Below, piece by piece: positions 43,372 through 58,420 of a stretch of DNA of 64,000 nucleotides (position 1 is its first letter; each line of letters opens with the position of its first letter). The notes below the pieces were generated by a model that saw only the letters and a program-made list of their open reading frames with translations, was not told the DNA's origin and searched no databases. The position numbers and the translations under genes are program-made. This stretch comes from Henriciella pelagia (GTDB lineage: Bacteria > Pseudomonadota > Alphaproteobacteria > Caulobacterales > Hyphomonadaceae), in the NCBI RefSeq assembly GCF_002088945.1, contig NZ_NCSU01000008.1:62001-126000 (forward strand). Reading direction: 5' to 3'.

Positions 43372-43818
43372 ATGAAACGGGTTCTGATCGCCGCATTGCC
43401 GCTGGCCGCTGTCTCGCTCGCATCCTGTATGACCACCAAATCCTATTCTGCCTGCAAGCAGGATGTGGAGCGGCTGAAGACAGCGATTTCGAACACGGCG
43501 GCGTTCCTCGACAGTGTGGAGCCTGAACTGCAGGCGGCAGAGGCCGCGGCGCGAGTGTGCGACACGCGGCTGGGCACGTGTGAGGCATCGGCGTGGGTGA
43601 TGCGCCTTGAGATCCTGCGCGCCGATGCGGACAGCGAACGGGCCTACTTCACGCGGGCCAATGAGACCTGGCGGCCGGAAGCCTGCCTCGACTACACCTC
43701 GACCTATCGGCTGAACCCGCCACCGCCTGAACGCTACCGCGCCTATTATGAGAGTTATGACAAGGTGACAGCGCGGACCGATGAGCTGATCGCGGAATTG
43801 GAGGCGTTTGGGGGGTAG
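43372..43818 (+). CDS. lipoprotein, unknown
   Basis: A 148-residue lipoprotein: signal MKRVLIAALPLAAVSLASC (Cys at residue 19), a helical region (KQDVERLKTAISNTAAFLDSVEPELQAAEAAARVC) likely to be coiled coil, two paired Cys, and a Tyr/Pro-rich part (LNPPPPERYRAYYESY). GGAGGATAGG directly precedes the ATG at 43372. It is followed by repeat copy 2. No function known. Confidence 0.8.
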   Translation: MKRVLIAALPLAAVSLASCMTTKSYSACKQDVERLKTAISNTAAFLDSVEPELQAAEAAARVCDTRLGTCEASAWVMRLEILRADADSERAYFTRANETWRPEACLDYTSTYRLNPPPPERYRAYYESYDKVTARTDELIAELEAFGG

Positions 43819-43843
43819 CGACGGACGCCGCCTGCTTTTGACG

Positions 43844-43962
43844 CGTCACTCTCGATGAGCCGACAGGGTCATCTGAGAGCCCATCTCCTGCCGCTCCAGC
43901 GGGTGCCTTCCTTGATAATGGGAGATGGGCCCTCTGACGGGCTGCGCCCGTCGAGGGTGACG
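43844..43962. repeat. dispersed ~115-bp palindromic repeat, copy 2
   Basis: Begins CGTCACTCTCGATGAGC and ends GTCGAGGGTGACG, matching copy 1 (27569-27683) at both ends and in the middle (CCATCTCC ... GGAGATGGGCCCTC). The two arms are complementary, so the unit can form a long stem. It lies between a lipoprotein gene and dihydroorotase. Confidence 0.75.
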
Positions 43963-44042
43963 ATAAACTTCGCCGTTTCACTTGATCAGTTGAATGTCAT
44001 GCCATTCGTGACATTCCGCACCAAGCGGCGCATAACGCCCCC

Positions 44043-45386
44043 ATGACCCAGACCTATGACCTTATCCTGAAGAATGGCACGGTGGTTTCGCCGGGCGGTG
44101 AAGAGCTTGTCGATGTTGCCGTGCGCGGCGAGAAGATTGTCGCCATCGGCAAATTCGAGGCGTCGCAGGCTGGCGAAGTTTATGACGCGACCGGGCTTCA
44201 TATCCTGCCGGGGGTGATCGACAGCCAGGTCCATTTCCGTGAGCCGGGGCTGGAGCACAAGGCCGACCTTGAGACCGAAGCGCGCTCTGCGGCGCTGGGC
44301 GGCGTGACGGCGGTGTTCGAGATGCCGAACACCAACCCGTCCACGACGACGCCGGAAATGCTGACCGACAAGCTTGCCCGCGCGAAGGGCCGGATGGATG
44401 TCGACCATGCCTTCTATGCCGGCGCGACGAATGAGAACCCGCACCTGCTCGCCGAGATGGAGCAGATGCAGGGCTGCTGCGGTGTGAAGGTCTTCATGGG
44501 CGCATCGACGGGTGACCTGCTGGTGAAGGATGACGAAGGCGTTGAGGCCGTGCTGCGCGCGATCAAGCGGCGGGCGGCGTTCCACTCGGAGGACGAGTAC
44601 AGACTGGAAGAGCGGCGTTCTCTTGCGGTTGAAGGCGACTGGCACAGCCATATTGTGGTGCGCGATGTCGAGGCGGCGGTCAGCTCGACCAGGCGGCTGC
44701 TGAAGATTGCCCGCAAGACCGGCAAGCGCATCCATGTGCTGCATATCTCGACGGCGGAAGAGATGGAGCTCTTGCGCGATGCGAAGGATGTCGCGTCGGT
44801 CGAGGTGCTGCCGAACCATCTGACGCTGGCTGCGCCCGATTGCTATGACCGGCTCAAGGGCTTTGCCCAGCAGAACCCGCCGGTGCGCGAGCAGCGCCAT
44901 CAGGATGCGCTTTGGCGCGCTTTGAATGCCGGGATCGTGGATGTCGTCGCGACCGACCATGCGCCGCATACGCGCGAGGAAAAGGAGCGGCCTTATCCAG
45001 CGTCTCCGTCTGGTATGCCGGGTGTGCAGACCTTCGTGCCGGTGATGCTGACGCATGTGAACAATGGCAAGTTGAGCCTTCGCCGCTTTGTCGAGCTGAC
45101 GAGTGCCGGGCCGCAGCGCGTCTTCGGCATCGCGACCAAGGGCCGGATTGCCGAGGGCTATGATGCCGACTTCACCATCGTTGACATGAAGCACAAGCAG
45201 ACCATCACGCATGAATGGGCCAAGGCCAAATGTGGCTGGACGCCCTATGACGGCTTCGAGGCGCAAGGCTGGCCTGTGGCGACCATCATCCGCGGGCGCT
45301 TCGTGATGCGCGACGGCGAGATCACGCGACAAGGCGGCGGCAAGCCGGTGCGGTTCAATGAGACGCTGGAGCCGGCTGAGATTTGA
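44043..45386 (+). CDS. pyrC: dihydroorotase
   Basis: A 447-residue amidohydrolase converting carbamoyl aspartate to dihydroorotate in pyrimidine synthesis. The metal motif VIDSQVHFREPG, the Lys in GVKVFMGASTGD, the His in HVLHIST and the Asp in VATDHAPH are all present. The class I type length is normal. An allantoinase role is an alternative because the families are close. It overlaps the next gene (TTGA). Confidence 0.92.
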   Translation: MTQTYDLILKNGTVVSPGGEELVDVAVRGEKIVAIGKFEASQAGEVYDATGLHILPGVIDSQVHFREPGLEHKADLETEARSAALGGVTAVFEMPNTNPSTTTPEMLTDKLARAKGRMDVDHAFYAGATNENPHLLAEMEQMQGCCGVKVFMGASTGDLLVKDDEGVEAVLRAIKRRAAFHSEDEYRLEERRSLAVEGDWHSHIVVRDVEAAVSSTRRLLKIARKTGKRIHVLHISTAEEMELLRDAKDVASVEVLPNHLTLAAPDCYDRLKGFAQQNPPVREQRHQDALWRALNAGIVDVVATDHAPHTREEKERPYPASPSGMPGVQTFVPVMLTHVNNGKLSLRRFVELTSAGPQRVFGIATKGRIAEGYDADFTIVDMKHKQTITHEWAKAKCGWTPYDGFEAQGWPVATIIRGRFVMRDGEITRQGGGKPVRFNETLEPAEI

Positions 45387-45970
45387 GCGTTCCTGCGGAG
45401 CTGATCGAGGGCCTGAAGGCCCGCTATGGCGAGCCGCAGCGGCATTATCATACCTGGGATCACATCACCGCGCTGAAGCGACATTATGACAGCCTGTCGG
45501 ATGCCTGGTCGCGGCCCGAGCCGGTGCTCTGGGCGCTCTACTGGCACGATGCGATCTACGATCCGACACGCGGGGACAATGAGGAACTGAGCGCTCAGCT
45601 GCTGGAGGAGCAGGGGCGCGGGCATATCAGTGATGATGATCTAACTTTCGCGGCGAAAATCATCCGGGCGACGGCGAAGCATGAAGTGCCGGATGGTCTA
45701 AGCGCGAGCGATGCACATGACCTTGCCCTGTTTCTCGACATCGACCTGTCGATCCTGGGTGCGCCGACAGCTGTGTTTGACCGGTACGAGACCGATGTGC
45801 GCAGGGAGTATGGGTTCGTGCCCGACGAGGCGTTCCGAGCCGGGCGGGCGCGCATTCTGAAGGGCTTTGCCGAGCGCCAGGAACTTTACTTCACGGATGC
45901 GGGCCGAGGCCTCTGGGACGCGCGCGCCCGATCCAACCTCCAACGTTCACTAGACCGGTTGGCGGACTGA
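45383..45970 (+). CDS. HD-domain metal-dependent phosphohydrolase
   Basis: A 195-residue protein with HD-family motifs: YHTWDHITALK, LYWHDAIYDP and ATAKHEV, a metal-binding set seen in predicted phosphohydrolases of this group. The proposed start is TTG at 45383, overlapping the dihydroorotase stop (TTGA), so it is coupled to pyrC; no better ATG exists upstream. Substrate unknown, possibly a nucleotide. Confidence 0.82.
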   Translation: MSVPAELIEGLKARYGEPQRHYHTWDHITALKRHYDSLSDAWSRPEPVLWALYWHDAIYDPTRGDNEELSAQLLEEQGRGHISDDDLTFAAKIIRATAKHEVPDGLSASDAHDLALFLDIDLSILGAPTAVFDRYETDVRREYGFVPDEAFRAGRARILKGFAERQELYFTDAGRGLWDARARSNLQRSLDRLAD

Positions 45971-46078
45971 CGCCGCGCCGTCCTGTATTCACCGGCATGT
46001 GGCGGATGATGCAAAAGAGCGGCAAAGCTTGATCGCAAGGGTGACCACTTTGGGTCGATATTCGGGGGCAGGTGCGTG

Positions 46079-46600
46079 ATGAGTCTCAGTGACATAGGTG
46101 CAGTTGCGAACCTCCTCTCAGCGATCGCGGTCCTCGCCACGCTGATATATCTCGCAATTCAGGTGGAGCAGTCGAACCGGCTGGCCCGCTCCCAGTCTCG
46201 CCAACGGATGATCGAGCAGACCCAGCAGGAGCTCTATCAGTGGATTGATAATCCCGACCTGCGTGAGGCTTTCCTGAGCTCGAAAGTGCCGTCCGCCGAG
46301 ACGCAGTCGAAGATGCACTTTTTCCTCATATCGGCGATGCGGCAGCGGGAATGGGAGTGGTTCCAGTACAAGGACGGCATCATCAACAAGCAGGTCTACG
46401 AAGCCTATCATGGCGTGATCGCGCTCCATCTTGGTATTCCGAGAACCCGGAAGTGGTGGCAAACCGTCGGGCGGATGGGGTTCAACCCTATATTTGTGTC
46501 CGAAGTGGATGCGTTTCTGGAACGCCAGCCACTGACCGAGAAATATTATGAAGATATCCGGCGCTTTGACTCACTGGTTCTGGAATCCGGGCCTGTGTGA
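46079..46600 (+). CDS. family B membrane-anchored helical protein 1
   Basis: First of six family B copies, 173 residues. An N-terminal hydrophobic segment (LLSAIAVLATLIYLAIQV, about residues 12-29) is followed by a helical domain with QREWEWFQYKDGIINKQVYEAYHG and a C-terminal aromatic stretch (RKWWQTV). It matches copy B5 (52735) most closely: both have the same spacing of R-E-[WY]-E-W-[FL]-Q-Y and I-x-K. Probably faces the cytoplasm after the single segment. A GTG at 46076 is in frame but ATG 46079 is used. It stands alone, 109 bp before B2. Confidence 0.72.
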   Translation: MSLSDIGAVANLLSAIAVLATLIYLAIQVEQSNRLARSQSRQRMIEQTQQELYQWIDNPDLREAFLSSKVPSAETQSKMHFFLISAMRQREWEWFQYKDGIINKQVYEAYHGVIALHLGIPRTRKWWQTVGRMGFNPIFVSEVDAFLERQPLTEKYYEDIRRFDSLVLESGPV

Positions 46601-46709
46601 GTCGGTTTTTGATCGCCGGCCGGTGCGCCCAATACGTGTTCCGAACTCGGTCAATTTCGGAAAATTCTAGGCAAATCAGCAATTCCCGTTAATCTCGCCC
46701 GTCAGGGGG

Positions 46710-47324
46710 ATGAGCATGGTGGACACGGGTGAAGTCGAAACGGCGCAACAGGAAGAGTCAGTCGTTCGCGGCAGGCATCTCGACCGGCTCAATCGCTGGT
46801 TGACACTGGCGGCCAATCTTGGCGTGCTGCTGGGACTGATCGTGCTGATCATCGAGGTGCGCCAGAATGCGTCGCTGACGCATGCCGCCATGGACCAACA
46901 GAAGAATAACTTCCTTGCCGAGATCGAACTCAATATCGCCAAGCCTGAGATGTCGGCCATCTGGGTCAAGGCGATCCGCACGCCCGAAGCGCTGAGCGAT
47001 ACCGAGGTCCAGGCCGCAGGCAGCATCCTGGTGTCGGTCATGCTGCAATGGGACCAGATGTTCATGATGCGCGACGCCGGGCTGATCTCCGACGCCCGGG
47101 TGCGCCAGCACATCAGCAACACGGCGCCCTTCTATTTCGGATCACGTTTCGCCAAGCACTGGTGGGCGATGCAGGCCGCAGGCTGGGAAGGCACGGCCAT
47201 GCAGAGGGATGCCACCCCCATCGTGGACGCGGTCGATGAGAATTTCCTCTCCGCGTATATGGACCGGCTCAAGATTCCTGCCGCCTCGCCCGCGATCGCC
47301 GGCCTGGTTGAGCCCGTCCAATGA
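46710..47324 (+). CDS. family B membrane-anchored helical protein 2
   Basis: Longest family B member, 204 residues, with an extra ~30-residue charged N terminus before the hydrophobic segment (LTLAANLGVLLGLIVLIIEV, about 31-50) and the EVRQNASL stretch that follows it in many copies. The C-terminal part keeps the FAKHWWAMQAAGW pattern. Its stop overlaps the start of B3 by 4 nt (ATGA), so it leads a coupled run B2-B3-A1. Start ATG 46710 follows a G-rich stretch. Confidence 0.72.
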   Translation: MSMVDTGEVETAQQEESVVRGRHLDRLNRWLTLAANLGVLLGLIVLIIEVRQNASLTHAAMDQQKNNFLAEIELNIAKPEMSAIWVKAIRTPEALSDTEVQAAGSILVSVMLQWDQMFMMRDAGLISDARVRQHISNTAPFYFGSRFAKHWWAMQAAGWEGTAMQRDATPIVDAVDENFLSAYMDRLKIPAASPAIAGLVEPVQ

Positions 47325-47836
47325 CGCTCAATGACGCCTACCTCCTGTCGCAGATCGTGGCCGTGGTGCTCGTCGCGCCGAGCATTCTCTACCTGGCCCT
47401 GCAGGTGCGCCAGAACACCCAGCAGCTGCGGGCAACGGCGCGGTTCCAATGGGTCGAAGCGTCGGGGCAATTCAATGCGCTGACGGCCGGGAGCGTCCAG
47501 GTTGCGTCCATGTTCCGGAAAGGCTGGGACAATCCCGACCAGTTGGACGATGACGAGCGCATGCAGTTCCTCATCCACCTTGGCCACTTCCTGCAGGTCT
47601 ATTCGACCATGTATGAGCTGCATCAGGAGAAGCTGTTGCCCGAAACGCAATGGTACAACTGCCGCAAGGACATGATTTCCGTGATGAATTCGCCAGGCGG
47701 GCTCTGGGTCTGGGAGGCGTTCGGCAGGAAAGGGCTCCATCCGGAGTTTGTCACCTTCATGGAGGGACTGAGAAAGGCTGAAGACGGAAGCTTCGATCTC
47801 ACAGCGGACGGCATGAAAAGGGAGGCGGTTACATGA
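47321..47836 (+). CDS. family B membrane-anchored helical protein 3
   Basis: A 171-residue family B copy. The hydrophobic segment (YLLSQIVAVVLVAPSILYLALQV, about residues 5-27) is followed by RQNTQQLRATARF. The C-terminal domain has the family pattern of an E-x-W stretch (PETQWYNCRKDMI) and a late aromatic segment. It is coupled by ATGA overlaps to both B2 and A1, so the three are probably made in equal amounts and may form one complex. Confidence 0.72.
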   Translation: MTLNDAYLLSQIVAVVLVAPSILYLALQVRQNTQQLRATARFQWVEASGQFNALTAGSVQVASMFRKGWDNPDQLDDDERMQFLIHLGHFLQVYSTMYELHQEKLLPETQWYNCRKDMISVMNSPGGLWVWEAFGRKGLHPEFVTFMEGLRKAEDGSFDLTADGMKREAVT

Positions 47837-48585
47837 TCCTGCGGCGCCTCACCAAACACGTCAAAGAGCAGAACTGGTTTGCGGTCGCGCTGGACTTTCT
47901 GATCGTGGTCGTGGGTGTGTTCCTTGGTTTGCAGGTCAGCAACTGGAATGAGGATCAATCGCTGCAGGCGCGCTCGGATCAGTCGATCGTGGAACTGCGC
48001 AGGGAGTTTGCGGATATTGACGCAGCAGCCTCAGAGCTTTCCCAGTTCTACCGAGAGATCGTTGAGGACCTTGAAGTTCTCGTAGTGGCCCTAGAGCGAG
48101 GAGAAGTGTCGCCTGACACGTCAGACGACATCATAAACGCCTTGGCCTACGGAGAGGTGTTTGGCGATCCGCCGCCTCCTTCCGGCACGTTTCGAGATCT
48201 CAACAGCTCGGGCAATCTTGCCTTGATCGACAACCAGAAACTGCGTTTGCGTCTGATCGAGTATGACCAGAGCCTTGAAAACATCGTCGCGTCCGACGCC
48301 AACATCAATGCGATGCTGGCTCAATATAATGTCGCTTTCAGGCGGCACGTCACCTTCAGCGCCGCGCACGCAATACCTGATGGTGAGGACTTCAGTTTTC
48401 AGGACGTCAGCTTGCCCCTGGTAACATCTTTCGATTTCGAGGCGATGCGGACAGATCCTGATTTCAGCGTCGCAGCGCAGCAGCATTTGAGACTTCAGAT
48501 CGGCAGGTACATCAATATCCGGATCAGCCAAAGCAAGATACGGCAGATACGAGACATCCTTGATGCAGATGATCATGCAGACTGA
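47833..48585 (+). CDS. family A DUF6090-like membrane protein 1
   Basis: First of six family A copies, 250 residues. The N terminus MILRRLTKHVKEQNWFAVALDFLIVV is the most divergent anchor of the set; the membrane segment (about 17-36) ends in GLQVSNWNEDQ. A likely coiled-coil region (about 40-80) is followed by the shared core FRDLNSSGNLALI near residue 118. Unlike most other copies it has no Cys. N-terminal basic residues predict the C-terminal domain in the periplasm. Coupled by ATGA to B3. Confidence 0.75.
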   Translation: MILRRLTKHVKEQNWFAVALDFLIVVVGVFLGLQVSNWNEDQSLQARSDQSIVELRREFADIDAAASELSQFYREIVEDLEVLVVALERGEVSPDTSDDIINALAYGEVFGDPPPPSGTFRDLNSSGNLALIDNQKLRLRLIEYDQSLENIVASDANINAMLAQYNVAFRRHVTFSAAHAIPDGEDFSFQDVSLPLVTSFDFEAMRTDPDFSVAAQQHLRLQIGRYINIRISQSKIRQIRDILDADDHAD

Positions 48586-48636
48586 GCGCCGGGTCAGCCT
48601 GATGCACCCAATGAAATCCACTGAAAGGCAGCATGG

Positions 48637-49128
48637 ATGACCCTCGAACAGACATACTTCCTGGCGGGGATCATCTCATCCATTGCGGTGATTGCGTCGT
48701 TGATCTTTGTCGGATTCCAGCTGAGGCATTCAGCGAACCAGCAGCGTATCGCAACGGCGGTCGGCTATTACGACATTTTCCGCGACCATATGAAAATCCT
48801 GAGCGAGGCGGGCATGGTGGACCTTTTTCTGCGGGGCCTCGAACAGGGGGCTGATGAATTCGAGCCGGCAGAAAAAACGCGACTCAACGTGTTCTACACC
48901 ATGGTCACGCGCGGCTATCAGGTGATGTACTACCAGGCCCGGAAGAAAGTCTTTGAGGAAGATTTCTGGCAACATTCCCAGAACCATTTCCGAGACCATC
49001 TCGCCTCGAGATACTACCAGTCCTTCTGGACGGCGCGACGCCACCATTTTCCGCACGATTTTCGGAAGCTTGTCGATGGGCTGATCGAGGCCGGACCGAC
49101 AGCGCCGCTGCTGGAGATGGAGACATGA
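48637..49128 (+). CDS. family B membrane-anchored helical protein 4
   Basis: A 163-residue family B copy: hydrophobic segment FLAGIISSIAVIASLIFVGFQ (about residues 8-28), then a helical domain with VMYYQARKKVFEEDFWQHS and the late aromatic YYQSFWTARRHHFPHDF. It starts 51 bp after A1, the largest gap inside the array, so a new transcript could begin here. Its stop overlaps the GNAT gene by 4 nt (ATGA). ATG at 48637 is chosen because the family core follows immediately. Confidence 0.72.
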   Translation: MTLEQTYFLAGIISSIAVIASLIFVGFQLRHSANQQRIATAVGYYDIFRDHMKILSEAGMVDLFLRGLEQGADEFEPAEKTRLNVFYTMVTRGYQVMYYQARKKVFEEDFWQHSQNHFRDHLASRYYQSFWTARRHHFPHDFRKLVDGLIEAGPTAPLLEMET

Positions 49129-49706
49129 CGACCGGTGAGACGGATCCAGACCGCCCGGTCCAGCCGGCTGGCAGGGGATTGAGCGCTTCGGTAACCATCC
49201 GCGAGGCCGCGTCAGCCGCAGACTATGCCGGTTTCGGCGCGCTCATCTCCGAATATGTCGGCTGGTGCCGGGAGCGCTATGCGGCGCAGGAGTGGCTGGT
49301 CGACATGGCGTTCAGTCACCAGTCGCTCGACCGGGAGCTCGAAGCGCTCAGCACCACCTATGGCCCGCCCAATGGGCGCACGCTGATCGCGCTGGATGGC
49401 GCGGAAATTGTCGGAGGCGTCGCCTATCGGGTGCGCTCTCCCGATACGTGCGAGATGAAGCGGATGTATGTCGCCCGCGCGGCTGGCAAGAAGGGCATCG
49501 GACGGGCGCTCTGCGCGGCACTGCTTGACCTGGCCGCGGCGAATAGCTTTCGCCGTATGGTGCTCGACACCACGCGCGACATGACAGAGGCAATCGGTCT
49601 CTACCGGTCGTTCGGCTTCGCAGATTGCGAGGCTTATATCGATTATCCGGACCGCATGAAGCCGATGATGGTGTTCATGCAAAAGCCCCTGGGGTCGGCC
49701 CGATGA
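49125..49706 (+). CDS. GNAT family N-acetyltransferase
   Basis: A 193-residue acetyltransferase with the acetyl-CoA motif KRMYVARAAGKKGIGRALCAALL (about 122-144; R/K-x-x-G-x-G type) and the C-terminal YRSFGFADCEAYI. It is the only non-A, non-B gene in the array, embedded by ATGA overlaps between B4 and A2. Because it is translationally coupled, it is likely to act on the same pathway, for example by modifying a partner protein or small molecule; that is inference. Confidence 0.87.
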   Translation: MTTGETDPDRPVQPAGRGLSASVTIREAASAADYAGFGALISEYVGWCRERYAAQEWLVDMAFSHQSLDRELEALSTTYGPPNGRTLIALDGAEIVGGVAYRVRSPDTCEMKRMYVARAAGKKGIGRALCAALLDLAAANSFRRMVLDTTRDMTEAIGLYRSFGFADCEAYIDYPDRMKPMMVFMQKPLGSAR

Positions 49707-50494
49707 TCCTCCGCCGTCTCGCCACCTCCATCCGCAAACAGGACTGGTTCACTGTCTTCATCGAGACACTGATCGTCGTGCTCGGCGTGTTCCTTGGCCT
49801 GCAGGTCAACAACTGGAATGAGGCGCGCAAGGACCGGGTGGAGGCGGAGACCTCGCGTGAGCGACTGATTGCCGAACTCCAAGCTGATCTCGATGCATTC
49901 GCGGTTCGCCGGCAATGGTACGAGGAAGTCCAGGAAGCCGCCCTGCGCGTGGATGAAGCGCTGCGCTCCGATCCGCCCGAAACGATTGATGAGACGTGGG
50001 GATTTGTTCTCGACAGCTGGATTGCGGGCGGCGAATGGCCGTTCGAGCCATCGGCGCAGATTTACAGTGAACTTCAGAATTCTGGTGATCTCGACCTCAT
50101 TGCCAGCGGATCGATGCAGCGCCGACTGCGCGACTATTATGAAGACTCGGTCAACGAGATTGAAACGCTGATGATATTCCAATCAGGCTATCGCGATCTG
50201 TCGCGCCAATTGATCGAAGGGCGCGTCGGCATGCTCATGATTGACTGTCTCTCCTCGGCACCCAGTCCCGAACCCAGCCAGCCAAGCGCAAACCCTGATA
50301 CATTCTATGAAAACTGTCCGCCGCCAGAAGATATCGCTCTTCTTTTGCGCTCAGCCAAAAGTCTCCGGGAGTCGGAGACGCTCCGATTGCAGCTGAATTT
50401 CCAGCTGAGCAAACTTGCGTGGCTGCCGACATTTCTTGATTACCTTGATCGACAGGCAGCATCGCTCGTCTCCGACCTGGAGACAGAACAATGA
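49703..50494 (+). CDS. family A DUF6090-like membrane protein 2
   Basis: A 263-residue family A copy. MILRRLATSIRKQDWFTVF starts the conserved basic-aromatic anchor, and the membrane segment ends GLQVNNWNEARK. The core IYSELQNSGDLDLI is near residue 120. The C-terminal domain has two Cys (DCLSSAP and ENCPPPE), possibly a disulfide in the periplasm. The start is ATG 49703 overlapping the GNAT stop. It leads a run of four consecutive family A genes, all with ATGA joints. Confidence 0.78.
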   Translation: MILRRLATSIRKQDWFTVFIETLIVVLGVFLGLQVNNWNEARKDRVEAETSRERLIAELQADLDAFAVRRQWYEEVQEAALRVDEALRSDPPETIDETWGFVLDSWIAGGEWPFEPSAQIYSELQNSGDLDLIASGSMQRRLRDYYEDSVNEIETLMIFQSGYRDLSRQLIEGRVGMLMIDCLSSAPSPEPSQPSANPDTFYENCPPPEDIALLLRSAKSLRESETLRLQLNFQLSKLAWLPTFLDYLDRQAASLVSDLETEQ

Positions 50495-51222
50495 TTCTCC
50501 GCCGCCTCACTACCGCGCTACGCAAGCAGGACTGGTTCACCGTCGTTATCGAAACACTCATCGTGGTGTTCGGCGTCTTCATTGCCCTCCAGGTCAATAA
50601 CTGGAATGCGGGGCGTCTTGAGCGAGTGGATACTCAGAACGTGCTGGAGCGGCTGGAGCGCGATTTCGAACTGCAACTCTCGCTCACCAATCGCAGCATT
50701 GGACAGCAGGTCTTGTTGCTCGAGGCGACCAGCCGGCTCATCACTTCCATTCACACAGGTGAGTTCGATGAGCAGACGCTCTTCGAGGACGTCGCTTTCG
50801 TGGACACGATTTCGACCTTGCCCGGACCATCGGCGGCGTTTCAGGAACTCGTGGCCACGGGTCGATTACACCTGATCCGGAATGAGGATTTGCGGGACAA
50901 GCTCTATGAGTATGACAGTTCGATTATGTTCGGGCGCGAAATTTTTGGCGGCAGTTTCACGGCGCCCGTGGACGAACTGGCCCGTGTTCTGTTCAGGGCA
51001 AAAAAGCTGGTCGCGTCAGGCATCCCGTCGGAGACCTTTTCTCAGGTCGGCGCCGTCGAATCTGTTGATCGTGCGGTAATTCTGGAAGACCCGGAAGTTC
51101 TCGCCGCATTGCAGAACGCATACCTGATCCAGGACAATTATCATCTCATCCTGGTCCGGTGCCGCAACCAGATTGAAGCCATATTGGAGCTCCTGAGACA
51201 GGAACGGGAGCGCGCTTCATGA
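50491..51222 (+). CDS. family A DUF6090-like membrane protein 3
   Basis: A 243-residue copy with MILRRLTTALRKQDWFTVV at the anchor, membrane segment ending ALQVNNWNAGR, a charged coiled-coil-like stretch (about 45-75), and the core FQELVATGRLHLI near residue 117. It has one Cys late (VRCRN). DNA encoding the anchor is very close to that of A4. Coupled by ATGA on both sides. Ectodomain identity to its neighbours looks low. Confidence 0.77.
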   Translation: MILRRLTTALRKQDWFTVVIETLIVVFGVFIALQVNNWNAGRLERVDTQNVLERLERDFELQLSLTNRSIGQQVLLLEATSRLITSIHTGEFDEQTLFEDVAFVDTISTLPGPSAAFQELVATGRLHLIRNEDLRDKLYEYDSSIMFGREIFGGSFTAPVDELARVLFRAKKLVASGIPSETFSQVGAVESVDRAVILEDPEVLAALQNAYLIQDNYHLILVRCRNQIEAILELLRQERERAS

Positions 51223-51989
51223 TCCTCCGCCGTCTCACTACCGCGCTGCGCAAGCAGGACTGGGTGACTGTCGCCATCGAGACGCTGATTGTTGTGATGG
51301 GTGTCTTCATTGGTCTGCAGGTCAATAACTGGAACGACACGCGCATGGATCGGTCCGTGGAGCGCGCGACCCTGATCCGGCTGTACGAAGATATCGAGGA
51401 AAGCATCGCAGGCCAGCGCCGCGACATTGGATTTCTCGAGCAGCAGCTGGCCGACCAGGCTGTGGTTTTGAAGGCGCTGGATGATTGCGCCGTTGCGCCG
51501 AAAGATAGCATGACAGTGCAACGCGGTATTGCCACACTTGGCTGGCTGAACCCGCCACGGCTTTATCGACGCACGATCGATGAATTGATTTCATCTGGCC
51601 GCACGGACATGATCGAGAACAGCGAAATTGTGGACGCGCTCGCGCGCATTGTTTCGATCGTCGAATGGCGGGAAGCGTGGTTTTCGTCAACGATCGATAC
51701 ATTGGAGCATCACAGTCAGTTCGTTGAAAGCAAAACGCGATACGACATGACTCGAACGATCAGCAATCCGTTCGTTCCCAATCACAGAGGGGGCGTTGAT
51801 TACGATATTGACGTGCTCTGCGCCGATGCCAGCGTCGCGAACGCTGTTTCCTCAATCAGCTATCGGACGGCTGAGCGCCTTGAAGCCTATCGGCCTATTT
51901 TGGATGCCTATACGGCTTTTCTTCCGCTTCTAGCAACAGAGCTGAAAGACCGGTGGCGTATCGATATCGTCTCGGACGTAGCGCCATGA
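51219..51989 (+). CDS. family A DUF6090-like membrane protein 4
   Basis: A 256-residue copy. Anchor MILRRLTTALRKQDWVTVA (Val in place of Phe), membrane segment ending GLQVNNWNDTR, core IDELISSGRTDMI near residue 119. Two Cys (DDCAVAP, LCADAS) suggest a disulfide. The remainder is rich in aromatic and charged residues (IVEWREAWFSS). Coupled by ATGA to A3 and A5. Confidence 0.77.
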   Translation: MILRRLTTALRKQDWVTVAIETLIVVMGVFIGLQVNNWNDTRMDRSVERATLIRLYEDIEESIAGQRRDIGFLEQQLADQAVVLKALDDCAVAPKDSMTVQRGIATLGWLNPPRLYRRTIDELISSGRTDMIENSEIVDALARIVSIVEWREAWFSSTIDTLEHHSQFVESKTRYDMTRTISNPFVPNHRGGVDYDIDVLCADASVANAVSSISYRTAERLEAYRPILDAYTAFLPLLATELKDRWRIDIVSDVAP

Positions 51990-52738
51990 TCCTCCGACGC
52001 CTCGCCACTTCCATCCGCAAGCAGGACTGGTTCACCGTCGCCACCGAGACGCTGATTGTCGTGTTTGGTGTCTTCATCGGTCTGGAGGTCAATAACTGGA
52101 ACCAGGCGCGAGCCGACGGGGTAGCCTATGACGAGGCCCTCATTCGCTTCGACGCAGAGATCGACAGGAACGTTGCCGAGCTCGAGCGCGTCATTGCTGA
52201 CCTCGCCATAGACCTTCCTCGTGCCGAGGCGGCGATTGAGACTCTTCAGGCCTGTAGCGATACCGAGGGCGCGAAGGCGCTGATCGATGAAGCGCTGTCG
52301 TCGGCGCGCGGAACAGCGAGCATACGGCTGCGACGCGCCTCTCTTGATGCTCTGACAAGCGACCCGGTCCTGCTGTCGCAGCAGACCAGCGAGGAGCGCC
52401 AGCGCTTTTCGGATCTCGCCTTCATGTTCGACCTTTACGAGGTCGAGGCGAGCTGGGCGGAGTTTCACCCGCTCGACATTCCCATTGAGAACGTGCCCGT
52501 GCTCGGTATCGGCACGCCGCTGCCGCCGCGCGAGACCGAATATGCAGGGCGAATTTATCAATGGAACAAGAGCTATCCGCTGGTCCTTTCAGCGCCGCTC
52601 ACCGAGGCCTGCAAGCAGGGTGAGCTGATCAAGGCCCTGTTCTCGTGGCATCGCTGGCAGAACAATCTGACTCCGCTTTCAGTGGGCGTGCTGGAAGAGC
52701 TCGATGCGACGAAAACATTGCTGGAGGAGAGATCATGA
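51986..52738 (+). CDS. family A DUF6090-like membrane protein 5
   Basis: A 250-residue copy. Anchor MILRRLATSIRKQDWFTVA matches A2, and the membrane segment ends GLEVNNWNQAR, with Glu where other copies have Gln. The core is degenerate (DALTSDPVLLS) and lacks the S/T-G pair, so this copy may have diverged in function. Cys in QACSDTE and EACKQGE fit a disulfide. Start 51986 overlaps A4; its stop overlaps B5, whose Shine-Dalgarno (GGAGGAGA) lies in the end of this gene. Confidence 0.75.
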   Translation: MILRRLATSIRKQDWFTVATETLIVVFGVFIGLEVNNWNQARADGVAYDEALIRFDAEIDRNVAELERVIADLAIDLPRAEAAIETLQACSDTEGAKALIDEALSSARGTASIRLRRASLDALTSDPVLLSQQTSEERQRFSDLAFMFDLYEVEASWAEFHPLDIPIENVPVLGIGTPLPPRETEYAGRIYQWNKSYPLVLSAPLTEACKQGELIKALFSWHRWQNNLTPLSVGVLEELDATKTLLEERS

Positions 52739-53223
52739 CCCTCGAACAAGCCGCCCTTATTGCGCAGATTGTCGGTGTGGTAGTCGTCGCCGCGACCCTC
52801 ATCTATCTTGCCATGCAGGTGCATCAGGGCGCGCAACAGATGCGCTCCGAAGGCCGGCAGGCGCAGCTCACCTATGACCAGACCGGCGTCTACAAATTCG
52901 TCGATTTTCCGGAGCTGGGCCGCATCTTCTCGCAGGCCGAAACGCCGAGTTTCGAGGAAAAGACCAAGCTTTTCTTCTGGATGATCGGGCAGATGCGGGC
53001 GCGAGAATATGAGTGGCTGCAATATCAGAATGGCGCCATCACGAAGGAGTCATGGGAGACGTATCAGGGCGTCATCTATTTCGTTCTTGGTACGCCGCGC
53101 GGCCGGGCGCTCTGGCAGCTTTGCCGGGGCTATTTCAACACCGGCTTCGCCGACATGGTGGATGGGATGGTACGCGACGTGCCCCCCATCGATCTATGGG
53201 ATCAATTGCAGGCTGTGGAGTGA
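52735..53223 (+). CDS. family B membrane-anchored helical protein 5
   Basis: A 162-residue copy with hydrophobic segment LIAQIVGVVVVAATLIYLAMQV (about residues 7-28) and MRAREYEWLQYQNGAITKESWETYQGVI, clearly paralogous to B1 although B1 lies at the far end of the array. The late part (GRALWQLCRGYFNTGFADMVDG) matches the family pattern. It is coupled to A5 by ATGA and A6 starts 4 bp after its stop. Confidence 0.74.
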   Translation: MTLEQAALIAQIVGVVVVAATLIYLAMQVHQGAQQMRSEGRQAQLTYDQTGVYKFVDFPELGRIFSQAETPSFEEKTKLFFWMIGQMRAREYEWLQYQNGAITKESWETYQGVIYFVLGTPRGRALWQLCRGYFNTGFADMVDGMVRDVPPIDLWDQLQAVE

Positions 53224-53227
53224 CCGG

Positions 53228-54010
53228 ATGATCCTTCGAAGCCTCGCCACTGCGCTGCGCAAGCAGGACTGGTTCACAGTTGTGATCGAAACGCTGATTG
53301 TCGTGTTCGGTGTTTTTCTCGGCATTCAGCTGGGCAACTGGAATGAGGCCCGCGAAACGCAGGAGCGGGCAAAGGATTTCAGCGAGCGGCTGATCGCCGA
53401 TCTTCGCTATGAGGCATGGGCCTATGATTACCTGATCGAATACAACAAGGATGTTCGCTCGGCAGCGCGAGCCGCACTCGATTCCATTTCCGGCGCCGCC
53501 CCGCTGTCCGACGAGCAGTTCGTGATCAATGCCTACAGGGCCACACAGTACAAATACAATGATCGCGGGCGCGCGACTTATGATGAGCTGATTTCGACAG
53601 GTGAGATTGGTCTGATCGAGGATGACACGCTTCGAACCACGGCGATTACGTTGTTCACGACCACGTTGCTGGATGTCATCGCCGAAGAGGGCCGCAACGC
53701 ACCGATCCGGGAAATCTTCAGGCGCAAGGTGCCGGCCAAGGTGCAGGCAGCGGTTCTGCGCGAGTGTGGCGACAGGTTTGTGCCGACAGGCGATGTTGAC
53801 GCGATCCGCGGGTCGCTCGCCTATGATTGCACCCTGTCAGTTCCGGAAGCTGATATCGCCGCTGCGGCGACTCTGTTACGCAGCGATGAGGGCCTTGTCG
53901 AAGCGCTGCAAATCCGATTTGCAGACCTCGAAACGGCGATCACCGACCTTGAACACGTCAATGCAGAGATGGTGGCCGACCTGCGCGATATCGCAGATCG
54001 CGAAGATTAG
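53228..54010 (+). CDS. family A DUF6090-like membrane protein 6
   Basis: A 260-residue copy. Anchor MILRSLATALRKQDWFTVV, membrane segment ending GIQLGNWNEAR, core YDELISTGEIGLI near residue 119. Two Cys (RECGDRF, YDCTLSV) again suggest a disulfide. The final region is helical and acidic. It starts 4 nt after the B5 stop, the only A start in the downstream run without an ATGA overlap. A gap of 86 bp follows before B6. Confidence 0.77.
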   Translation: MILRSLATALRKQDWFTVVIETLIVVFGVFLGIQLGNWNEARETQERAKDFSERLIADLRYEAWAYDYLIEYNKDVRSAARAALDSISGAAPLSDEQFVINAYRATQYKYNDRGRATYDELISTGEIGLIEDDTLRTTAITLFTTTLLDVIAEEGRNAPIREIFRRKVPAKVQAAVLRECGDRFVPTGDVDAIRGSLAYDCTLSVPEADIAAAATLLRSDEGLVEALQIRFADLETAITDLEHVNAEMVADLRDIADRED

Positions 54011-54096
54011 GCGGCTTGCAGCGATTGTGCTGATTTCAAATTTATTCGTCTTGGCGTAAAATTGCCAACGCGCAGGCGTGCGCCGGAGCTCAGACA

Positions 54097-54624
54097 ATGT
54101 CGCTGAACGAGGTCTATCTGGTCTCGCAGATTGTTGCAGCAGCGGCGGTTATTCCGTCCCTGATCGCGCTGATCATTTCCGTCCGCCAGAATACCCGCGC
54201 GCAGAAAACCGCTTCGGTCCAGTCGATCACGTCGGCGATTGCCGCGATCAATATTCCCGGCAGTGAGTCCCCGGCGCTCGGCGATGCCCTGCAGGTTGCC
54301 ACACGTGACTGGGAAGAAGCCAGCCGGGACCAACGCATCCTCGCCCACTATTTCCTGTTCAGTTTCTTCAAGCTTTGCGAGCAGGCCTGGTACCAGCATG
54401 AATCGGGTGCGCTGGATGAAAGCCAGTGGGCCGGATGGGAAAATTCGATCCTGCGCTTCTATCACAGTCCCGGCGTGAAGGAGGGGTGGTGGCCGCACCG
54501 GCGCGGCGCCTATTCGCCAGCCTTCCAGGAATTTCTTGCCCTGAGCACGCCGCCATCCTCGCTCGGCCTGTTCACCATGTTTGGGGAGCGCGAAGAGGCG
54601 TCCCCGCTGCAGGCGGTCTCCTGA
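54097..54624 (+). CDS. family B membrane-anchored helical protein 6
   Basis: A 175-residue copy closing the array. The hydrophobic segment (VSQIVAAAAVIPSLIALIISV, about residues 9-29) is followed by RQNTRAQKTASV, close to B3. The helical domain carries FKLCEQAWYQHESGALDESQWAGWENSI, the family E-Q-x(n)-G-x-L-x(3)-W pattern. It is separated from A6 by 86 bp and from the peptidase gene by 94 bp, so it could be transcribed with either. Confidence 0.72.
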   Translation: MSLNEVYLVSQIVAAAAVIPSLIALIISVRQNTRAQKTASVQSITSAIAAINIPGSESPALGDALQVATRDWEEASRDQRILAHYFLFSFFKLCEQAWYQHESGALDESQWAGWENSILRFYHSPGVKEGWWPHRRGAYSPAFQEFLALSTPPSSLGLFTMFGEREEASPLQAVS

Positions 54625-54718
54625 GGGCTGGCGGCCGGTCGCCCGAATTTAAAGGCTGACAAGCCGGTCACAATCGCTAGGGTCCCTGCAATACAGACCC
54701 GAAAAGAGAGGATAAAGG

Positions 54719-56131
54719 ATGATCAGGAAGCTGCTGCTCGCCACGACGCTCTGTTGCTGCGCGACTGCGCCCGGCATGACCGCGCAGGAGCGCGCCCCGC
54801 ATGAGCTTGAAGCGCGCGAAATCTATTCGGACATTGTCTCGATCCGCTCGGCGCGCGGGCAGGAGAAGATGCCCGAAATGGTCGACTATCTCGTCGCTGT
54901 CCTCAAGGAGGCCGGCTTCGAGGAGGATGATTTCGAGATCACCGATTACGACAATAAGGGAGAGGCGACGCAGGGCCTGATCGTCTGGTACCGCGCGGAA
55001 AATCCAAGTGAGGACCCGATCGTCCTTCTTGCCCACATGGATGTGGTCGATGCGCTGGCCGAGGACTGGGTGCGCCCGCCCTTCGAGCTGATCGAGGAAG
55101 AAGGCTATTTCTTCGGGCGCGGCACGGCTGACAACAAGTATGGCGTCACGCAGCTCGTCTCCACCTTCATCCGTCTCAAGGAAGAGGGATTTGAGCCGAC
55201 GCGCGACCTTGTCATGGTGCTGTCGGGCGATGAAGAGACCGGCATGGTCTCGACGCGCGGCCAGGCGAAATATGTCGATGAGGTCGTGAAGCCGGCCTTC
55301 GTGCTGAACGCTGATGCTGGCGGTCTTGCGCTCGGCGATGATGGTGAACCGCTCTATTATGGTGTGCAGGGCGCAGAGAAGACCTATGCGACCTTCGAGC
55401 TGACGGTGACCAATCCGGGCGGGCATTCATCGACGCCGCGCAAGGACAATGCGATCTATGAACTTGCCGATGCGCTGAAGGCGATCCAGGCCTATGAATT
55501 CCCGGTAATGTCGAGCGAGCTGACGCGGGCCTCCCTGCGCTCGAGTGGGCGACAGCGGCTCGACGGCCTCGGCAAGGCGATGCGGGATTTTGCCGATGAC
55601 CCGACTGATGAGGATGCGATTGCGGTGCTGCGCGCCAATCCGGCGACAGTCGGCACAATCGGAACGACCTGCGTTGCGACCATGCTGCGCGGCGGCCATG
55701 CCGAAAACGCGCTGCCACAGTCGGCAACGGCGACCGTGAACTGCCGCATCTTCCCGGGTGTCGGCATCGAGGCGACAGAAGAAACGCTGAAACAGGTGGT
55801 CGCGAATGAGGATGTGAAATTCAAGCTGATCTCCGATCTCGTCGAAAGCCCGGAATCAGTGCTGCGCGAGGATGTGATGGCGGCGCTAGAGACCGCTCTT
55901 GCGGCCCGCGGGGCTGATGTGCCGATCCTGCCGCACATGTCATCAGGTGGCACGGACGGCATGCACTACCGCAATCTCGGCTATGACACGGTCGGCATTT
56001 CGGGCGCTGCCGCAAAGCAGAACGACACGTTTGCCCACGGACTGAATGAGCGTCTGCCGGTGAAGAGCTTCTATGACGGGCTCGATCATTTCTATATCGT
56101 GATCAAGGAGCTTGCCTCGCCGGAGGCCTGA
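54719..56131 (+). CDS. M20 family metallopeptidase, exported
   Basis: A 470-residue zinc peptidase of the M20/M25/M40 type. A signal region (LLLATTLCCCATAPGMTAQ) precedes the catalytic domain with LLAHMDVVDA, GTADNKYG, SGDEETG and an inserted dimerisation region (GGHSSTPRKDN), then the C-terminal His in FAHGLNERLPV. It probably hydrolyses peptides or acylated amino acids in the periplasm. GAGAGGATAAAGG precedes the ATG. Not part of the array upstream. Confidence 0.92.
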   Translation: MIRKLLLATTLCCCATAPGMTAQERAPHELEAREIYSDIVSIRSARGQEKMPEMVDYLVAVLKEAGFEEDDFEITDYDNKGEATQGLIVWYRAENPSEDPIVLLAHMDVVDALAEDWVRPPFELIEEEGYFFGRGTADNKYGVTQLVSTFIRLKEEGFEPTRDLVMVLSGDEETGMVSTRGQAKYVDEVVKPAFVLNADAGGLALGDDGEPLYYGVQGAEKTYATFELTVTNPGGHSSTPRKDNAIYELADALKAIQAYEFPVMSSELTRASLRSSGRQRLDGLGKAMRDFADDPTDEDAIAVLRANPATVGTIGTTCVATMLRGGHAENALPQSATATVNCRIFPGVGIEATEETLKQVVANEDVKFKLISDLVESPESVLREDVMAALETALAARGADVPILPHMSSGGTDGMHYRNLGYDTVGISGAAAKQNDTFAHGLNERLPVKSFYDGLDHFYIVIKELASPEA

Positions 56132-56234
56132 TCCTGGCGAGCAGGCAGGTGCTTGCCGAGCCAGGCAGCGATACCATTCGGTGTCCGGCTTTGGGTGCCT
56201 GCCTGTTCCTGTGTCGCTTGGGACGGGTCCCGGC

Positions 56235-56621
56235 CTAGATTGCGGACGCTTGTGCTCGGGGTGCGGCGACGCAATTGACGTCGGACAGCCTGTACTTCTC
56301 CCCCGTCTCGCGGCGGACCACGAAGCAGTGGCGGCCATCGGTGACGATATCGAAGGGTATCGGAATGGACGGGCTGCTGGTTTCCAGCGGTCCGAGACTG
56401 GGCGGCAGGACGGTCAGGCTGGTTTCTTCTGTGAGGTCACCGGCACCGAGGCGGATGTCATTGCGGCCCATAGCTTCGGCGAGCACGGATTTCACCCGCG
56501 ACAGGGTTGTGTCATCCGAACGGGTCAGCGTGGCCGGTTCGCTGGTCTGCGCGGTTGTGCAGGCCGTTACCAGGTTCAGCGTCGCGATCGCGGAGAGGAT
56601 GAGCTTGATCGGGTTCTTCAT
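56235..56621 (-). CDS. lipoprotein, unknown
   Basis: A 128-residue lipoprotein (signal ending LNLVTACTTAQ, Cys near residue 21). The rest is a small mixed domain with two further Cys (HCFVV and VNCVA) and a Pro-rich middle (VLPPSLGPLETSSPSIPIP). Its start overlaps the S41 protease stop by 4 nt (ATGA), so the two are coupled and may work together. The 103-bp gap to the convergent peptidase gene has no terminator I can identify. Confidence 0.75.
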   Translation of the reverse strand: MKNPIKLILSAIATLNLVTACTTAQTSEPATLTRSDDTTLSRVKSVLAEAMGRNDIRLGAGDLTEETSLTVLPPSLGPLETSSPSIPIPFDIVTDGRHCFVVRRETGEKYRLSDVNCVAAPRAQASAI

Positions 56622-58306
56622 TGTGAGCGGCCACGGTAATCGCCCGGCATGGAAAGGTCCATATTATTCTCGAGTACGTCCGGTTCCGGCAGTTCGAGCC
56701 GTGCGCCGAGCGTCTCATCGGGCGCTGAGGCCGTGCCCTTCTCGCCGGATGGGTCAGCGCTCGCGCCCGGAGGCAGCGCGGGGCAGGTGCCATCGCTACG
56801 ATATTGCAGCGCGGCGGCGAGGAGCGCTTCGCTGGTGTCGCCGAGCTGGTTCTGGAAGTCATCCCTGACGACACACCCCGGGGTTTCGACACCGAAGGCG
56901 AAAGATGAATTCGCCGGGACGAAGCCGTCGGCAAAGTCACCGAAGTTCTTGTCGTTCACGCCCTGGAACTGGATCGTGTAATAGGTCTGGCCGCAATTGT
57001 CCTGTGGGTAGAAGCCATATGGCTTGCCGCAGGTGATGTCGCCGATGAGGACCACTTCGACATCGATGCCGCGCAGGCCATTGATCACCGCCTCGCTCGC
57101 GCTGCATGTGCTGCCGGTGGAGAGAATGTAGACGCGGCCAAGATCCAGCGTCGGCAAGCTGGCGCCATTGGTGAGGCTGAAGCCGAGACCGGTGCGGTAA
57201 AAGGGAATGGGGCTATTCACCTCCCCTGTGACCGGGTTGATATTGCCAGCAGCCGCATTGAAGCGCAGCAATTCGAAGGTGCGATTACTGGTGCGGGAAT
57301 TGCCGGCGATCATGTAGGAGAGCTGGCTGGCCACGGCGAGAAGGCCGCCGCCATTGTAGCGCAGGTCGAGAACGAGGTCGGTGACGCCAGCCGTCGCAAG
57401 GGTCTGCATCGCATCGGCAATCTGCTTTTCCGACGAGAACGGGCTGAATGTGTTGAAGACGATATAGCCGACATCCCCTGTCGCGGTTGGAATGACCGAA
57501 GTGCGGATGACGGGCTGGCGCGATATATTGGCGGCAGACAGGGTGACCGTCCGCGTCGCCGAGGTGCCCGGGTCGGACACGGTAAAGGTGTGACTCTCGC
57601 CGACCGTGTCCGGAAAGAGGGCCGCATTGATCTGGTTGACCGCAGCTTGCGAGGCGGCATTGACGATGTCGATGCCGTCCACACTCAGAAGCCTGGTGCC
57701 GCGAATGAGGTTCTGCTGGCCGGAGACGATCTCGGCTGCCGGCGAGCCGGGCTCGACATAGCGGATGCGGACATCACGCGGCGGTGTGGCGGCGAGGATG
57801 GCATAGCTCGCGCCATAGGCTGGCGATGGCGCAGAGTTGCGCGCCGCAAGATAGTCCTCGGTGGGTTCACTGAAATGGAAATCGTCCTTGGCCTCGCCTG
57901 ATGCGGTGACGGCGCTGGTCTTGAGATCGTCGAAATAGGGGACGCGGGCGGTGTAATTGTCCGGGTCTAGATCGGGCACTTCAGTCCGCCACAGATAGGT
58001 CTCGTCGGTCCATGAGCGCAGCCAGAGAAGCTCTTCCAGCAGCGAGCCTGCCTCATCGGGAAATGGATTACCCTCAATGTCGACGCCGGTTCGCGGGGTC
58101 TCGCACTGATCCTTGAAGAGGCTTGCATCCTCATACACGCCCGGCGTGTAGGTCGGACCTGAACCGCCGGATGGCGGGGGTGAAGGGGGAGGGGGTGGAG
58201 CGGGCGGTGCGCTGCTTCCGCCACCGCCACCTCCGCCGCCCCCGCAGGCGGCAAGGCCGAAAAGAATGGCTGACGCCAGAATGGCGGACGGACGGTTCAT
58301 CGGCAT
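56618..58306 (-). CDS. S41 family peptidase, lipoprotein with poly-Gly/Pro linker
   Basis: A 562-residue protease. Signal ends at LAAC, followed by a run of Gly residues and a Pro/Ser-rich linker (about residues 20-50). A domain of about 100 residues precedes a PDZ domain (IRYVEPGSPAAEIVSGQQNL) and the S41 catalytic domain (LVLDLRYNGGG; STCSASEAVINGL with the likely nucleophile Ser; GKPYG). Such enzymes act on periplasmic or envelope proteins. The start 58306 (MPMN) or 58300 are both possible. Coupled to the lipoprotein at 56235. Confidence 0.88.
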   Translation of the reverse strand: MPMNRPSAILASAILFGLAACGGGGGGGGGSSAPPAPPPPPSPPPSGGSGPTYTPGVYEDASLFKDQCETPRTGVDIEGNPFPDEAGSLLEELLWLRSWTDETYLWRTEVPDLDPDNYTARVPYFDDLKTSAVTASGEAKDDFHFSEPTEDYLAARNSAPSPAYGASYAILAATPPRDVRIRYVEPGSPAAEIVSGQQNLIRGTRLLSVDGIDIVNAASQAAVNQINAALFPDTVGESHTFTVSDPGTSATRTVTLSAANISRQPVIRTSVIPTATGDVGYIVFNTFSPFSSEKQIADAMQTLATAGVTDLVLDLRYNGGGLLAVASQLSYMIAGNSRTSNRTFELLRFNAAAGNINPVTGEVNSPIPFYRTGLGFSLTNGASLPTLDLGRVYILSTGSTCSASEAVINGLRGIDVEVVLIGDITCGKPYGFYPQDNCGQTYYTIQFQGVNDKNFGDFADGFVPANSSFAFGVETPGCVVRDDFQNQLGDTSEALLAAALQYRSDGTCPALPPGASADPSGEKGTASAPDETLGARLELPEPDVLENNMDLSMPGDYRGRSQ

Positions 58307-58420
58307 GTATGTATTTCCCTGACGCTCCAGGTTGAAACAGGAGCCACAGAGGCGCGCAGAGCGCAAGCCGGAGCGACACGCGGTGAGCAGGGCCGGGGAG
58401 AGGGAGGGCAGGCAGAAGCC

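Follow-up and report, generated by a model that had tools for sequence, protein, structure and literature searches.

The described arrangement nearest to the array reported here is the immunity gene string of the type VII secretion system (T7SS; PMC9484751). In these strings, exemplified by esaG and tipC, tandem, non-identical genes follow a toxin gene, vary in number between strains and combine conserved with variable blocks, and the strings evolve by in-place recombination between paralogues (PMC9484751). TipC is membrane-bound and outward-facing, and one strain carries 15 copies (PMC9484751). A second arrangement is the rAID array, which is named for a recombinase and consists of divergent genes that have been acquired and stand separate from the attacking effector (PMC12247911). 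Our subject is a 13-gene array of Henriciella pelagia (Alphaproteobacteria, Hyphomonadaceae) at positions 46079-54624 of a 64,000-nucleotide stretch of contig NZ_NCSU01000008.1 (positions 62,001 to 126,000), the whole of which is called the window below. It contains six genes each of two membrane-protein families, A and B, and one gene for a GNAT acetyltransferase.

The array resembles the T7SS strings in its tandem, non-identical genes and in the outward-facing, membrane-bound character of TipC, which is also predicted for family A. It differs from them in that no toxin gene is recognised at its head among the Pfam-scanned proteins of the array and three flanking proteins, that its neighbouring units are about 15-40% identical overall, and that its matches lie in other genomes; the likeness considered here is one of layout. 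The first 41 codons (the leader) are common to the A units and could be compared with the shared block of a T7SS string, but no same-type duplicates were seen in the fetched loci and leaders beside matching units are at background likeness. With rAID arrays it shares the state of an acquired, divergent gene array apart from an effector, and it is unlike them in being dominated by two families (PMC12247911). Pfam scans of the array and flanking proteins gave no match to a recombinase, with no recombinase profile run. We do not claim membership in either class. For the loci examined, we describe instead a traded, non-redundant repertoire of membrane proteins from two families of opposite predicted orientation, a description that replaces the earlier note's reading of the array as an expansion; the function proposed for it is inferred.

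A non-redundant set of whole genes

Unit statistics were taken from 41 loci in a pool of 105 Hyphomonadaceae genomes, selected for the most part on the strength of their A or B matches; this sample favours A-rich arrays and leaves units elsewhere in those genomes uncounted. None of the 167 A units and none of the 46 B units has a relative of at least 60% identity (over the body of the protein) in the fetched loci of its own genome. Relatives at this level are found in another genome of the genus for 81 of 167 A and 40 of 46 B units, and in another genus for 54 and 34 of them, respectively; 20 of the 167 A units have a relative of at least 80% in another genus. At the other extreme, even a 40% relative is lacking among the fetched loci for 41 A units and 2 B units. 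Pairs of A units were also counted for 154 of the 167 (those starting with MI and longer than 200 residues). Same-type pairs make up 0 of 469 within genomes, where 4.6 would be expected at the between-genus rate, 72 of 7,319 between genera, and 109 of 3,993 between genomes of one genus, the last figure being inflated by near-identical arrays of close species such as G008 and G009.

Unit order is scrambled. When a unit has a match, the unit that follows it matches as well in 12 of 281 cases between genera and in 46 of 319 within a genus; cases in which the matching unit ends its array are counted here as order not kept. Two Hyphomonas arrays (G047 and G062) have a common run of units with one unit moved. 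Among the A matches listed, one internal stop was seen. The array is, in the loci examined, a non-redundant repertoire of whole genes, and its units would be gained, lost and reordered by transfer between bacteria. Local duplication, which the earlier note had proposed as a local expansion of the two families, is ruled out for the loci examined by the low identity within the array, the absence of same-type pairs within genomes and the matches in other genera.

Other parts of that note are borne out. All 13 genes lie on the + strand in the order B-B-B-A-B-GNAT-A-A-A-A-B-A-B, and the coupling is as tight as it had claimed, with an exact 4-base ATGA overlap at 8 of the 12 junctions (B2/B3, B3/A1, B4/GNAT, GNAT/A2, A2/A3, A3/A4, A4/A5 and A5/B5) and a 4-base gap between B5 and A6. 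Larger gaps separate B1 from B2 (109 bases), A1 from B4 (51 bases) and A6 from B6 (86 bases). Overlaps of 4 bases recur at 131 of 171 unit junctions in the fetched loci. The A proteins share 20-29% and the B proteins 15-38% identity with the first member in the array, so the paralogy is not a product of assembly duplication. Searches of the 3.44-Mb assembly (16 contigs, estimated complete) with one profile made from the six A proteins and another from the six B proteins gave six matches each (E <= 0.01), all of them inside the array. That no other gene type is present is true within 46079-54624, but the run is not isolated, as same-strand M20 peptidase, amidohydrolase and 195-residue protein genes flank it. 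No structured RNA was found at Rfam cut-offs in 43500-57500, and promoter and terminator scans gave results at chance level. The genes, with the M20 gene that follows, are:

B1, 46079..46600, + strand: family B; single N-terminal membrane segment, predicted inward-facing helical domain; 88% to G029, 40% to B5
B2, 46710..47324, + strand: family B with an N-terminal extension, start ambiguous (46710, 46716 or later); 82% over 161 residues to Hyphomonas atlantica
B3, 47321..47836, + strand: family B; ATGA overlaps with B2 and A1; 46% to a Robiginitomaculum metagenome-assembled genome (MAG; L130)
A1, 47833..48585, + strand: family A; best relatives among the fetched loci 33-37%
B4, 48637..49128, + strand: family B; 82-87% to genomes of two genera
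GNAT, 49125..49706, + strand: GNAT acetyltransferase (PF00583, E 2e-16)
A2, 49703..50494, + strand: family A; recent exchange with Hyphomonas, body 92% (amino acids) and 91% (nucleotides) to G047
A3, 50491..51222, + strand: family A; structure predicted
A4, 51219..51989, + strand: family A; recent exchange with a Ponticaulis-like genome, body 94% (amino acids) and 89% (nucleotides) to G081
A5, 51986..52738, + strand: family A; 90% (amino acids) to G029, another Henriciella
B5, 52735..53223, + strand: family B, strongly conserved type; body 98% (amino acids) to G036 (Hyphomonas), 86% to Henriciella G010 and G029; structure predicted
A6, 53228..54010, + strand: family A; best PF19578 score (22.6 bits); 74-77% to Henriciella genomes
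B6, 54097..54624, + strand: family B; 63-72% to Hyphomonas G047 and G062
M20, 54719..56131, + strand: M20 metallopeptidase (NF006596, PRK09133) with a signal peptide seen by eye; recurs beside such arrays

Two units provide the clearest cases of exchange. The body of A2 is 91% identical in DNA to its match in G047, with an identity of 0.76 at fourfold-degenerate sites, compared with 0.72 and 0.70 (DNA) and 0.41 and 0.48 (fourfold sites) for the core genes purB and argS of the same pair of genomes. For A4 and G081 the body values are 0.89 and 0.75, and those of purB and argS are 0.72 and 0.64 (DNA) and 0.42 and 0.41 (fourfold sites). The excess at fourfold sites gives Fisher values of 8e-9 (A2) and 3e-9 (A4), computed from rounded fractions for best cross-genus matches that were chosen from many comparisons. 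The A2 match spans 49692-50506, the borders of the unit, and the A4 match begins at the start of A4 and extends through the next leader. A4 is 93% identical to a unit of UBA1849. By these comparisons, A2 and A4 are units that recently moved between genera. B5 is 97% identical to a unit of Hyphomonas atlantica, and its body shares 97-98% with three Hyphomonas and 86% with Henriciella G010 and G029, an order that purB reverses. A3, A6, B1 and B4 show synonymous divergence like that of core genes, and for them vertical descent and old transfer are therefore indistinguishable; units other than A2 and A4 could be older transfers or the result of vertical descent.

The units are maintained as working genes, as judged by the ratio of nonsynonymous to synonymous substitution rates (dN/dS). 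For pairs restricted to a body identity of at least 70% and a dS of 0.05-1.2, the median dN/dS is 0.12 for A leaders (143 pairs), 0.20 for A bodies (114 pairs) and 0.10 for B (100 pairs), and B5 compared with its three closest Hyphomonas relatives gives 0.02. The core genes purB and argS give 0.03-0.08 (8 comparisons). The A bodies are evolving faster than core genes, without whole-gene positive selection.

The A and B proteins

The model of A3 (predicted local distance difference test score, pLDDT, 93.4; 65 aligned sequences) shows a short N-terminal helix, a helix at residues 15-89 that begins as a membrane segment, and then a four-helix bundle. In 365 distinct A proteins, residue 21, inside a hydrophobic segment that starts at residue 16, is acidic without exception (E in 205, D in 160); G28 is invariant, and Q13 is present in 363. 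These 365 were drawn from 386 distinct proteins by requiring a tryptophan near residue 15, so the count for that tryptophan is true by selection. The pattern search for A loci covered roughly residues 10-18 and 30-38, and not residue 21. Among loci found by profile, residue 21 is E or D in 160 of 165 distinct family units longer than 200 residues; the other five also lack W at 15, and by eye all five have E six residues after a W. An acidic residue stands at the same position in 11 of 11 distant A proteins found by a profile search in nine genomes of other families and classes. This acid may be comparable to the membrane acids of stator proteins and of immune receptors.

Two sets of A proteins depart from the common N-terminus. 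One distant A protein (L205, G336:C1, about 848900-849800) has a different N-terminus and a GEIVLIVFGILFALQIANWNQ segment and keeps the acidic residue; we take this N-terminus and the GEIVLIVFGILFALQIANWNQ segment to be near those of DUF6090 proteins of Bacteroidota. A units in L043, L052, L065 and L066 start with MRFFRR or MRFVRR and are without the NWN motif, and the W and the acid six residues on are retained.

No second hydrophobic segment is found in 360 of the 365 A proteins. Lysine plus arginine is more abundant before the segment in 261 proteins and after it in 16, with 88 showing no difference. Cysteines in the body number none in 101, two in 228, four in 24 and an odd number in 12, i.e., an even number in 353, which fits disulphides and a periplasmic location. 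Both the charge bias and the even cysteine numbers agree with a predicted topology in which A crosses the inner membrane once, keeps its N-terminus inside the cell and places a variable four-helix bundle, cysteine-paired in most cases, in the periplasm.

The same topology and fold resemble those of the sensor domains of NarQ (Z 9.1) and MCP2201 (Z 8.9), and A proteins could be ligand-binding modules whose bundles tune a shared signalling partner in the manner of chemoreceptors or NarQ, lacking an output domain of their own. Helical bundles can reach such Z scores by common arrangement alone and without kinship, and the best VIA match of A3 (Z 11.9) is to designed helical bundles, with no Foldseek match below E 0.04. 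The A proteins have no output domain and, as noted, hardly ever a second hydrophobic segment, and we consider a role as sensor modules to be markedly improbable.

The earlier note had called family A DUF6090-like (PF19578), which is correct as to homology and falls short as to membership. A6 matches PF19578 with E 1.1e-4 over residues 22-144, but its score of 22.6 bits is the best in the window and lies below the curated cut-off of 23.5; the other five A proteins of the window miss E 0.001, and a PF19578 search of the own genome gave 23 bits, also below the cut-off. Among 65 A proteins, 23 match at E <= 0.001 (best 2.9e-11). The likeness is to the leader and membrane segment of A. Three B proteins match DUF6082 (PF19560) weakly (E 0.017-0.08; best 15.2 bits, far below the cut-off of 26.7), and 0 of 16 aligned B proteins match it at E 0.01. 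The libraries searched give no function for family A or family B, a literature search found no paper naming DUF6090 or DUF6082, and broader searches showed nothing on such arrays.

The B5 model is all-helical and of intermediate confidence (pLDDT 79.8; 16 sequences), and a fold search with it gave nothing below E 2.3. In 57 B proteins, lysine plus arginine is higher after the membrane segment in 45, before it in 8 and equal in 4. As this bias is opposite to that of A, the domain of the single-pass B proteins most likely faces the cytoplasm. Body cysteines number 0 or 1 in 55 of the 57. At the inner end of the segment, 54 of 57 have R, K or H as residue 30. A salt bridge between this residue and residue 21 of A is only a proposal, since a basic residue at this end also follows from the positive-inside rule. 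A common origin of A and B was considered and is not supported, as hhalign gave a probability of 0.5% (E 0.13) over the membrane segment only.

How closely A and B are coupled depends on where one looks. In the 105 Hyphomonadaceae genomes, A is found in 51 and B in 49, with both in 39, A only in 12, B only in 10 and neither in 44 (Fisher p 2e-9, uncorrected for kinship). Close B genes have a listed A within 5 kb in at least 44 of 55 cases, where close means E <= 1e-28, a threshold set after viewing the list, and the counts are lower bounds from the A matches listed. Across 398 genomes from the phylum, A occurs in 14, B in 9 and both in 7, five of which are Hyphomonadaceae. In G476, from another family of the order, A and B genes lie on the same strand 74 bases apart; in G419 some 11 kb separate the two. 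Arrays of A genes turn up repeatedly in alpha- and gammaproteobacteria, the largest number of A matches seen in a genome being 19. A further 41 loci come from organisms whose names do not include Henriciella, Hyphomonas, Ponticaulis or Hyphomonadaceae; here B accompanies 7 of 33 multi-A loci, including those of Wenzhouxiangella and a Lysobacterales MAG, and 0 of 8 single-A loci. The coupling claimed by the earlier note is supported within Hyphomonadaceae, with one adjacent pair also in G476, and is seldom seen in multi-A loci elsewhere and for distant B relatives.

That note had suggested a membrane system made of variable subunits; on this reading A and B would be alternative parts of a single membrane machine, and the array would supply them interchangeably. 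The linkage of A with close B genes, the tight gene coupling, the opposite predicted topologies, the acidic residue in the A segment with the basic residue at the inner end of B, and the A-B pair in another family are all in keeping with this. It does not readily account for multi-A loci and solitary A genes with no B nearby or for B relatives without A, and we think it quite improbable. The same features could be arranged differently. Immune receptors that share signalling adaptors have such a layout, and the array might be a receptor repertoire in which interchangeable outward A proteins dock by their invariant acidic segment to shared inward B adaptors, whose basic residue would lie at the same face of the membrane; by importing whole receptor genes of other species into one operon, bacteria would widen their range of recognition. 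This more specific scheme is likewise rather unlikely.

The conservation of A leaders extends to nucleotides. Across the first 41 codons, identity at fourfold sites is 0.58 within an array, 0.56 within a genus and 0.52 between genera; for the bodies it is 0.36, 0.36 and 0.35, the level expected from codon use (154 or 151 of the 167 A units). The excess is smaller between alpha- and gammaproteobacterial units (0.41-0.46 for leaders and 0.30-0.35 for bodies). In the window, third bases are kept position by position beyond codon use at, for example, 49703-49825. A nucleotide-level constraint on the leader is possible. Exchange by a crossover inside the leader was considered and is not claimed, with leaders after a match at 0.737 and the background at 0.739 (116 cases); leaders downstream of cross-genus matching units show at most a faint gradient (19 pairs).

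The unusual likeness of the leaders at synonymous sites would also fit an accumulation hot spot, a slot gathering weakly beneficial or neutral genes whose common leader reflects integration only, and M20, GNAT, SnoaL-like, TPR and other genes in or by the arrays are what such a hot spot would hold. The units are mostly intact and under purifying selection, however, the leaders after matching units are at background likeness, and the membrane acid is kept across classes. We regard a mere hot spot as very improbable.

What the repertoire may recognise

Recognition of varied outside agents, perhaps in defence, is in our judgement the most likely function of the array. The reading that we favour, tentatively and at somewhat less than an even chance, is that mutually different whole-gene A and B units are collected in one slot and that the A bundles recognise varied outside agents. 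A single membrane partner would probably be shared by all A proteins, which would dock to it through their near-invariant N-terminal helix and membrane segment, as is suggested by this near-invariance and by the acid inside the membrane. B is one candidate for this partner. Each A bundle would then meet a different outside agent, which may be a toxin acting in the periplasm, a phage part or another ligand, and would either block it or report it through the shared segment. Keeping one unit of each kind may provide wider cover. If the reading is true, strains that differ by one unit offer a direct route to what the units recognise, and the invariant intramembrane acid is a single-site handle on the shared mechanism.

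Several observations weigh against such a role in recognition. No ligand, toxin or phage link was found. PADLOC, run on 10 proteins (four A, four B, GNAT and M20, not A4, A5, B1 or B6), gave one chance-level hit (E 0.043, 11.5 bits), and PHROGs scans of 2 of 6 A and 4 of 6 B proteins gave nothing beyond chance. Phage and plasmid collections gave no relative for A3 and one weak plasmid hit for B5 (27%, E 1e-3), and of the 25 and 42 pattern matches of the A and B alignments to viral contigs none was confirmed. Four-helix bundles are common, making the fold little informative, and the whole-gene dN/dS of A bodies is that of purifying and not of diversifying selection. A shared A-B system is also at odds with solitary A genes that have no B within the fetched stretch, with 26 of 33 non-family multi-A loci (two A or more) that show no B, some of them cut by contig ends, and with distant B relatives, of which few (at least 4 of 50) were seen near a listed A. 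Finally, the presence of M20, GNAT, SnoaL-like and TPR genes in or by arrays is as it would be in a general hot spot. Carriage by a phage or plasmid was considered separately and rejected on the results for A3, the viral contigs and B5.

The closest competitor to varied recognition is an orphan immunity array, in which each A neutralises one periplasm-acting toxin of a competitor and the immunity genes were acquired without the toxins. Variable-number strings of non-identical immunity genes, including the membrane-bound, outward-facing TipC, are known (PMC9484751), and units that are non-redundant, can be transferred and have a predicted outward domain would suit such an array. No toxin is recognised in the array or its Pfam-scanned flanks, however, with the neighbours of solitary A genes viewed by eye only; the near-invariant membrane segment exceeds the needs of an anchor, and whole-gene positive selection is absent. 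Orphan immunity is unlikely on this balance.

The chromosomal slot and its neighbours

In Henriciella, the slot is bordered on the left by an amidohydrolase gene, usually with the gene for a 195-residue protein, and on the right by an S41-like peptidase and a K-channel-like gene (both by eye). Its contents differ by species, for example B and eight A and then M20 in G007, M20 and three A in G004, and two B and M20 in G010. The slot looks old and its contents changing. In the window, the amidohydrolase and 195-residue protein genes precede the array on the same strand, and the M20 gene follows B6 after 94 bases, also on the same strand; Pfam scans of these three flanking proteins identified the amidohydrolase and the M20 peptidase and gave no match for the 195-residue protein.

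The M20 gene is a recurrent companion. Of its 17 closest copies (at least 74%, window copy included), 15 adjoin an A or B gene, and the two exceptions (G005 and G013) are genomes without either family. Copies in or by the arrays of four Hyphomonas (G036, G047, G049 and G062) are closer to the window gene (78-79%) than are other Hyphomonas orthologues (69-71%), which suggests that M20 travelled with the arrays. As an obligate partner it is unsupported, as few of the next 18 copies (64-71%), at least 3, were seen near A or B, with the A positions of G020, G061 and G067 outside the matches listed. A relative of the GNAT gene lies inside one other array, that of Henriciella mobilis (L068/L112). 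Further genes within arrays or next to them are of SnoaL-like, TPR, cytochrome c'-like and DUF418 type (one member of each was Pfam-scanned, the cytochrome c' match being just below the cut-off).

Some further genes deserve mention. The amidohydrolase gene of the window (44043-45386) is 85% identical in DNA to that of the Hyphomonas-group genome G064, compared with 63-71% for other genes of that locus, and it may have been exchanged too or may be unusually constrained. At 56618-58366, on the - strand, lies a gene that reads by eye as a secreted S41/PDZ-like peptidase; it has a run of glycines close to its start and is the common right border of the slot in Henriciella. In three Henriciella (L049, L051 and L053) a sulfotransferase-like gene of about 217 residues (by eye) stands at the array start, upstream of B. 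A membrane protein starting with ELRRRN is found in or beside the A arrays of several orders (L050, L062, L126, L130, L141, L143 and L144), and the one that was scanned (L130) contains TPR repeats.

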